Part shown: one piece after another, positions 22,957-29,455 of the stretch
Layout of the letters: every line of letters begins with the position of its first letter
How positions within the stretch are numbered: the first letter of the stretch is position 1
Source of the DNA: Treponema sp.
GTDB lineage: Bacteria > Spirochaetota > Spirochaetia > Treponematales > Breznakiellaceae
Reading direction: 5' to 3'
Assembly (NCBI GenBank): GCA_031279815.1
Contig: JAITHW010000225.1
Location: 1 to 35,562 of the forward strand
DNA: 35,562 nt
Position numbers and translations under genes: made by a program
Notes under the pieces: model-generated
What the model saw: the letters and a program-made list of their open reading frames with translations, nothing else
Database searches by the model: none
What the model was told of the DNA's origin: nothing

Positions 22957-23036
22957 CAACAAATCCGCAGATTATACAGAGGGTTTAGGAGGCGTATTTT
23001 TATTACTAAAATAGTAATGTTTAGTGTATAAATGAC

Positions 23037-23065
23037 TTGACCTCCGGCGAAAAAAAGGGTACTTT
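23037..23065 (+). promoter_or_regulatory. Promoter of the RNA unit after luxS
   Basis: TTGACC (23037-23042), 17 nt, then TACTTT (23060-23065). The predicted start is near 23071. No gene starts within the next 160 nt, but a strong terminator does occur, so the promoter defines an RNA unit of about 140 nt. Confidence 0.6.
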
Positions 23066-23070
23066 ATAAG

Positions 23071-23213
23071 TAGACCTGATGATATGGTGTTATGCCTTTT
23101 TCATCACCGACATACAAACTACTGTGACTAGAGCAGCATCGTGTTTTACAGCAACCGTATTGTCAGGGAGTTGCCTCCCGGGTTTCCCACCTCCTTTTCC
23201 CGGGAGGTTTTTT
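23071..23213 (+). ncRNA. Candidate small RNA or leader with anti-Shine-Dalgarno terminator loop
   Basis: A non-coding unit from promoter to terminator, about 140 nt. It can form a hairpin from TGATGA (23078-23083) with TCATCA (23101-23106), a possible GCAAC/GTTGC pairing (23151-23155 with 23170-23174), and the terminator at 23174-23213. The terminator loop reads TTTCCCACCTCCTTTT; within it CACCTCCTTT (23188-23197) equals the highly conserved 3' tail of 16S rRNA that binds Shine-Dalgarno sequences. I do not recognise an Rfam family: no 6S, SRP, S-box or THF riboswitch core was seen. It may instead be the leader of the DUF2314 gene. Confidence 0.6.
23174..23213 (+). terminator. Intrinsic terminator with C/U-rich loop
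   Basis: A perfect 9-bp GC-rich stem CCTCCCGGG (23174-23182) / CCCGGGAGG (23199-23207) with a 16-nt loop and six Ts directly after it (23208-23213). Its left arm can alternatively pair as CTCCC (23175-23179) with GGGAG (23166-23170), forming a tight TTGC-loop hairpin that excludes the terminator. Confidence 0.9.
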
Positions 23214-28123: not shown

Positions 28124-29455
28124 TTGATAAAACGCCTGCTCATAGCGAACCGGGGAGAAATAGCGGTCCGCATTATCCGTACCTGCCGGGAAATGGGAAT
28201 TGAAACCGTGGCGGTGTATTCTACCGCGGATAAGGATAACCTCCATGTCCTTTTGGCGGATAAGGCCGTGTGTATCGGACCGCCTCCTTCGGCGCAGAGC
28301 TATCTGGTCCGCAACAATCTTATCATGGCGGGCATACATACGCACTGCGATGCCATCCATCCGGGAGTCGGGTTTCTCTCGGAGAACGCGGAATTCGCCC
28401 GGCTCGCGCTGGATAACGGGTTCATATTCATCGGCCCCGACCCGCAGGTGATTGACCTGCTGGGGGACAAGGTCAAGGCTAGGACAACGGCTTGCAAGTT
28501 CGGTTTGCCGGTTACTCCGGGAACCGAACGGGCGGTGCCGGATATCGCGGGAGCCAGGAAAGCTGTGGAGCAACTGGGCTTTCCGGTGATCATTAAGGCC
28601 GCGGCCGGCGGCGGCGGTAAGGGGATGCGGGTAGTCCAGACCGCGGGGGAGCTTGAGGAAAATTTCCTCATTGCAGGAGCGGAAGCGCAAGCGAATTTTG
28701 CTGACGACCGGGTGTTTATTGAACGGTATATTGAAAATCCCCGCCATGTGGAGCTGCAAATCCTTGCGGACGGCAACGGCAGCGTGGCCGTTTTAGGGGA
28801 GCGGGACTGTTCGGTTCAGAAAAATCATCAAAAACTCATTGAAGAAAGCCCTTCCCCAGGGGTAACAAAGGATATGCGGGAGCGTATGGCTGCGGGCGCG
28901 GTGGAAATGTTCCGGGAACTCCGTTACCGGGGCGCGGGGACCATCGAGTTTCTTGTTGAAAGAAAAGATTTTTACTTTATGGAAGTGAACGCCAGGGTTC
29001 AAGTGGAACATCCTGTGAGCGAGTTCGTTACCGGCACGGATATCATACGGGAACAGATCCTTGCCTGCACCGAAGGGCAGATGGGCATCGATCCCGGCAC
29101 GATACGCCTCAACGGATGGGCTATCGAGTGCAGAATCAACGCCCTAGGTCCGGGCAAGGTTACAAGGCTGGACATACCCGGCGGGCCGGGAGTCCGGTTC
29201 GACAGCTTTTTGTATACCGGCTGCACGATGCCGCCTCACTACGACGCTATGGCGGCAAAGCTCATCGTATACGGGAAAGACCGGCAGGCAGCGCTTGCCA
29301 AGATGGATCGCGCGTTGAAAGAACTGAACATTCAAGGCATACAGACCAATAAAGCTCAACAGCAGTGGATTATACAAGACCCGCAATTTCGTTCCGGCAA
29401 TTTCGGAACATCCTATTACGATCAGATTGCAAAGGAGGCGGAACATGCCCGCTGA
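28124..29455 (+). CDS. accC: Biotin carboxylase subunit of acetyl-CoA carboxylase
   Basis: AccC carboxylates biotin with ATP and bicarbonate. The 443-residue ATP-grasp protein starts IKRLLIANRGEIAVRIIRTC. It has the ATP-binding GGGGKGMRVV, the EPGIGFLSEN-like HPGVGFLSENAEF, GERDCSVQKNHQKLIEE and the FMEVNARVQVEHPVSE catalytic segment. The start is TTG 28124, seven bases after AAGGGAG. Length is as usual for stand-alone AccC. The next gene starts inside the last codons of this one. Confidence 0.96.
   Translation: MIKRLLIANRGEIAVRIIRTCREMGIETVAVYSTADKDNLHVLLADKAVCIGPPPSAQSYLVRNNLIMAGIHTHCDAIHPGVGFLSENAEFARLALDNGFIFIGPDPQVIDLLGDKVKARTTACKFGLPVTPGTERAVPDIAGARKAVEQLGFPVIIKAAAGGGGKGMRVVQTAGELEENFLIAGAEAQANFADDRVFIERYIENPRHVELQILADGNGSVAVLGERDCSVQKNHQKLIEESPSPGVTKDMRERMAAGAVEMFRELRYRGAGTIEFLVERKDFYFMEVNARVQVEHPVSEFVTGTDIIREQILACTEGQMGIDPGTIRLNGWAIECRINALGPGKVTRLDIPGGPGVRFDSFLYTGCTMPPHYDAMAAKLIVYGKDRQAALAKMDRALKELNIQGIQTNKAQQQWIIQDPQFRSGNFGTSYYDQIAKEAEHAR

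Follow-up and report, generated by a model that had tools for sequence, protein, structure and literature searches.

Positions 23072-23213 of the window, which here means the whole 35,562-nt stretch of a Treponema sp. contig that was analyzed, are, as read from the sequence and its relatives, a standalone structured non-coding RNA. The best explanation of this RNA is that it is independently transcribed and acts in trans, probably masking Shine-Dalgarno (SD) sites by base pairing. Transcription from a sigma70-type promoter would yield an RNA of ~140 nt, in which the closed stem of the 5' domain probably shields the 5' end and keeps it apart from the terminator. The terminator hairpin displays an unpaired loop that is identical to the 3' tail of 16S rRNA. 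This loop would pair with the SDs of accessible mRNAs and keep the 30S subunit off them, and further selectivity might come from the accessibility of the mRNA or from the variable body of the RNA. The RNA belongs to a mostly single-copy family with an invariant anti-SD sequence throughout the Breznakiellaceae and related forms across the class, which raises the question of how an RNA that matches every SD site remains selective. Very little is known about small RNA regulation in spirochaetes outside Borrelia, and a conserved RNA family provides a concrete, testable entry point.

The preliminary description of this DNA placed the candidate RNA between luxS and the gene for a DUF2314 protein and found no credible open reading frame in it. 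Domain matches agreed with the placement (PF02664 and PF10077). The absence of a credible reading frame also held, because the sole open reading frame across the region (52 aa) runs through the terminator and the lengths of the RNA vary freely among relatives. Covariance model R1 matched positions 23076-23213 with 105 bits. The sequence CACCTCCTTT was located exactly where it had been described, inside the 16-nt terminator loop, and CCTCCTTT occurred a single time on the + strand of the 35.5-kb window. The positions of the features are listed in Table 1.

Table 1. Features of the predicted small RNA, its promoter, its neighbors and a candidate target site (positions in the window)
Feature	Position	Strand	Basis or remark
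luxS	one flank of the predicted small RNA	same strand as RNA	PF02664
Perfect dyad ATTACTAAAATAGTAAT, possible operator	23002..23018		upstream of the -35 box
-35 box TTGACC	23037..23042	+	TTGAC in 70/81 sequences
-10 box TACTTT	23060..23065	+	17-nt spacer; exactly 17 nt in 76/81
Predicted small RNA, ~140 nt	23072..23213	+	promoter and terminator; R1 match; no Rfam match
Basal stem P1, 5' strand CUGAUGAUAUGGU	23076..23088	+	13 pairs (13-14 bp in fold)
Variable interior of 5' domain	23089..23153	+	covarying hairpin P2 in most relatives
Basal stem P1, 3' strand ACCGUAUUGUCAG	23154..23166	+	fold and covariation
Intrinsic terminator hairpin P4	23173..23208	+	10-bp stem 23173-23182/23199-23208; 99.7% of cells paired
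Terminator loop UUUCCCACCUCCUUUU, 16 nt	23183..23198	+	fold
Anti-Shine-Dalgarno CACCUCCUUU	23188..23197	+	identical to 16S rRNA 3' tail
Terminator T-run	23208..23213	+	94-99% conserved from 23209 onward
DUF2314 gene	other flank, then folE	same strand as RNA	PF10077; folE PF01227
AAAGGAGG before accD, candidate target site	29431..29438	+	accD start 29445, PF01039

The predicted promoter of the window, TTGACC-N17-TACTTT, is of the sigma70 type and scored only 8/12, and a simple promoter scan missed it. Despite this score, the claim of a promoter was borne out by conservation, with scores of at least 8 in 72 of the 81 relatives compared to 19% of shuffled controls. The position of the promoter predicted a transcription start at ~23072-23075. 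In most of the aligned relatives the -10 box ended 7-11 nt before P1, and P1 therefore begins near the predicted 5' end. The shape of the dyad ATTACTAAAATAGTAAT was kept in the window's genus and in genus g14. No further copies of it within 2 mismatches were found elsewhere in this genome, and with a single occurrence it gave no clue to a regulator or regulon; it could be an operator serving a single promoter or could form a structure in the DNA.

The 143-nt stretch folded at -45.9 kcal/mol, more stably than 200 of 200 shuffled sequences (z -3.77), and in the computed fold CCCACCUCCUUUU in the loop had an unpaired probability of 1.0. A structural alignment was made of 81 sequences (80 distinct) from dozens of genera of the Breznakiellaceae. 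Among the 80 distinct sequences there were double changes at all 13 of the 13 pairs of P1, and the alignment also contained double changes at 8 of 8 pairs of P2, in which 79% of cells were paired, and at 5 of the 10 pairs of the P4 terminator stem. In this alignment, which was fitted to the structure, there were 253 double-change cells versus 72 in shuffles, slid versions came nowhere near, and an independent MAFFT alignment concurred (42 versus 14). The interior of the 5' domain varied widely in length across relatives. The minimal form, 74 nt in genus g17, consisted of a single 5' hairpin followed by the anti-SD terminator, which suggests that the variable interior may be dispensable.

Conservation was strictest in the terminator loop. 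Its core, ACCUCCUUUU, was identical in 81 of 81 sequences, as was ACCUCCUUU, while CACCUCCUUU was present in 80 of 81 and UCACCUCCUUUU, an 11-nt match to the 16S rRNA 3' tail, in 75 of 81. In two relatives the 16S rRNA tail was GGAUCACCUCCUUUCAC, in agreement with the identity to the conserved 16S rRNA 3' end that had been claimed for the loop. The stem carried U-A, U-G or C-G at one pair and G-C or A-U at another. A loop that varied freely on a conserved stem had been named beforehand as evidence against the RNA, and the alignment showed the opposite, an invariant loop on a covarying stem. We give almost no credence to an ordinary terminator in which the CCUCC of the loop is accidental; C/U-rich loops are common among terminators, but this one did not change in any of the 81 sequences while the stem pairs did, the hairpin pattern occurred once in the window's genome, and reversed-pattern controls were near zero in the families having the pattern. 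Comparative evidence thus supports a structured RNA that is transcribed independently and has an anti-SD sequence in its terminator loop.

When 200 genomes of the family were searched at the DNA level, well over a hundred contained the terminator part (23173-23213), with ~80-98% identity, and the remainder of the RNA was conserved in close genera only. Covariance model R1 had strong matches in at least 122 Breznakiellaceae genomes, a count that is a lower bound because of the strict filters of the large search; most of these genomes had one copy and several had two. There was no R1 match in the nearly complete genomes of genus g11, which indicates that the RNA is not essential everywhere. The family includes Breznakiella homolactica and presumably also T. 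primitia ZAS-2 and T. azotonutricium ZAS-9.

The covariance search, which had been proposed for the luxS-folE intervals of treponemes, confirmed the RNA family, but this interval was not its general setting. The luxS/DUF2314 context was limited to the window's genus and, in part, genus g14. In many other genera an AMP-binding (long-chain acyl-CoA ligase-like) gene was found downstream of the RNA, and in many genomes of genus g54 there was a gene upstream that we read from its sequence as a PerM-like transporter. There were 65 different pairs of neighbors among 80 loci, and the neighbors were often on the opposite strand (37 of 72 upstream genes and 29 of 69 downstream genes), so in general the RNA neither is a leader nor derives from a 3' UTR. 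This makes it very unlikely that the window's RNA is a cis element, either serving the downstream gene as its attenuator or leader or forming the 3' end of the luxS mRNA. Both neighbors in the window are on the same strand as the RNA and there is no other obvious terminator between luxS and the promoter, as such an element would have it, but the promoter is the RNA's own and is conserved, and no same-strand downstream gene was conserved with it. A promoter and terminator of its own, both conserved, and an unpaired, conserved anti-SD motif are the features of a trans-acting small RNA of the anti-SD type.

A difficulty for SD masking in trans is that a loop equal to the anti-SD would by itself discriminate little between targets and would have abundant ribosomes as competitors. 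A related reading is a general translation brake, in which the RNA becomes abundant under some condition and occupies SDs non-selectively, lowering initiation genome-wide. The loop is a complete anti-SD, and the dyad that close relatives have upstream of the -35 box suggests that expression can be switched, but most genomes have one copy of the gene, whereas SD sites and ribosomes number in the thousands, and we regard this reading as improbable. If the RNA masks SDs selectively, the loop would still match any strong SD, and therefore mRNAs with a long SD, such as those of rpsU (GGAAAGGAGGUGA) and accD, would be the first to be affected. The site before accD to which the preliminary description had pointed is real, and its predicted duplex with the loop was -16.2 kcal/mol compared to a 1% background quantile of -14.2. 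The rpsU leader of the window's genome, against the same background, gave -17.9 kcal/mol. Some other start regions in the window, of putative genes, had duplex scores similar to those of rpsU and accD. A search for the 11-nt target AAAGGAGGTGA found rpsU in the window's genome; most of the other matches were to 16S genes, to the RNA itself or to sites that lacked a clear start codon. The body segment CACCGACAUAC, whose complement GUAUGUCGGUG resembles a start-codon context, was considered as another site of pairing; nothing convincing was found, and in the window's genome its only exact match was the RNA itself, with one-mismatch matches scattered. Hfq was not found in 30 relatives by a search that detected it in control genomes. 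Both Helicobacter and these spirochaetes are usually described as lacking Hfq.

The rpsU leaders of relatives mostly contained AAAGGAGGTGA or close variants. The SD of rpsU, which encodes bS21, was mostly extended in the Breznakiellaceae (for example GGAAAGGAGGTGA), and this would fit autoregulation of bS21 of the Bacteroidota type. The extended SD may instead be due to such autoregulation, as reported for Bacteroidota (PMC9976891), and rpsU is therefore a candidate target and not a finding. The same leaders bear on a reading in which the loop mimics the 16S rRNA 3' tail for a protein, titrating or sensing a protein that holds the tail (the platform proteins bS21 and bS18, Era, or S1) and coupling the level of the RNA to ribosome assembly or to bS21 autoregulation. 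In most of the Breznakiellaceae the identity to 16S rRNA does reach beyond the SD core (UCACCUCCUUU), Era recognizes GAUCACCUCC (PMC10582724), and in Bacteroidota, whose rpsU genes have extended SDs, the tail is held by bS21, bS18 and bS6 (PMC9976891), with the rpsU SDs of the relatives here mostly extended too. However, Era needs both adenines of GAUCA and the loop is without that G-A, and loops outside the Breznakiellaceae retain only (A)CCUCCUUUU, the part that pairs with SDs. We consider a protein mimic unlikely and favor the masking of SD sites.

RNAs with the same kind of loop were found elsewhere in the class Spirochaetia. Other families of the order had weak R1 matches with differing bodies and stems, and in about ten further families of the class an anti-SD terminator loop was carried on unrelated RNA bodies. 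In a pattern search across the phylum, 82 of 393 genomes had the loop hairpin; by our own tally, these included 29 of the 35 genomes of family f13 and 9 of the 11 of family f5. Controls with the reversed pattern were near zero in these two families, and outside the class the rate of the pattern was close to that of the control. All but two of 20 inspected matches were a hairpin with a T-run. A scan with named entries gave matches mostly from spirochaetes (termite Treponema, Sphaerochaeta, Rectinema and Breznakiella); those from Pseudomonas, Thermus, Enterobacter and other non-spirochaetes were without hairpin and T-run and were rejected. When 35 terminators were compared, in an alignment that placed the stems out of register, a constant CCUCCUUUU was found within stems of unrelated sequence.

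A second CCUCCUUU, usually ACCUCCUUU, was found in apparently single-stranded RNA directly 5' of the terminator in the Sphaerochaetaceae, in Sediminispirochaeta-like genomes, in a T. denticola-like genus and in some deep Breznakiellaceae. The RNA of the Sphaerochaetaceae was distinct, ~120 nt long with a TTGATT-type promoter, and contained the AACCUCCUUUU motif twice, once in the terminator loop and once in an apparently single-stranded part. A further type, characterized by a conserved GTAACC segment and in most cases by two copies of the anti-SD, was present in the T. denticola-like genus, the Sediminispirochaeta-like genomes and deep Breznakiellaceae, and some genomes carried both this type and the window type. 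In families f4 and f5 a short RNA (AGAGUUCGUCAUGACUCU...GCUCCGGGGUUUUAACCUCCUUUUUCCCCGGAGC) was encoded upstream of a rex-like gene with CoA-binding and DNA-binding domains; in several genera of these families this RNA, with one anti-SD loop, lay directly upstream of the gene for the rex-like redox regulator. One spirochaete outside the class had a terminator hairpin with the loop UUUCACCUCCUUUU, a single case that could be chance. As a tentative and rather doubtful extension, much of the class Spirochaetia might share a layer of translational control by SD masking, in which Hfq-independent RNAs with exact 16S-tail terminator loops combine lineage-specific bodies with one constant anti-SD loop, possibly tied to bS21 and ribosome assembly.

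Neither the window, nor the locus, nor any of 15 related loci had an Rfam match at the gathering score, and 6S RNA and other known RNAs were ruled out accordingly. The best sub-threshold match was anti-hemB RNA of Burkholderia (RF02837), at 14.5 bits versus a gathering score of 49.5; it shares a C-rich hairpin followed by a U-run, and the spirochaete RNA is not a member. The preliminary description knew of no spirochaetal RNA of this design, and none was found in the open-licence literature.

Three further known systems are comparable. RepG of Helicobacter pylori pairs with a G-repeat upstream of the tlpB ribosome binding site, probably through its C/U-rich terminator loop (PMC6794450). The spirochaete RNA also has such a loop (UUUCCCACCUCCUUUU) as its proposed pairing site, so RepG, the analogue offered originally, was a fair one; however, the target of RepG is a G-repeat whereas the spirochaete loop matches the SD itself, and RNAs with true anti-SD motifs are closer. 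In Neisseria, anti-SD motifs of NmsRA and NmsRB mediate translational down-regulation (PMC5362039). Like the spirochaete RNAs with two motifs, these have two SD-pairing segments, of which one is located in a loop and the other between hairpins (PMC5362039), but their sequence, fold and phylum differ and their UC-rich segments are only partly complementary to the SD. The closest system is the alpha-r14 or "cuckoo" RNAs of the Alphaproteobacteria (NfeR1 and relatives), which are likewise trans-encoded and carry, in unpaired regions, an ultraconserved anti-SD motif on stems whose sequence varies (PMC10746234). Theirs is CCUCCUCCC in each of three hairpins. The spirochaete RNA, from another phylum, without an Rfam match and from a group in which Hfq was not found in 30 relatives, instead has a single motif, the exact 16S tail ACCUCCUUUU (81 of 81), in its terminator loop, and is built of a basal stem and a terminator. 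Its mode of action is probably like that of the alpha-r14/cuckoo RNAs, but it is not a member of that family. It shares neither the cuckoo motif nor the three-hairpin plan. We regard it as a new RNA family of a functional kind that is already known, and its conservation is unusually broad and strict.
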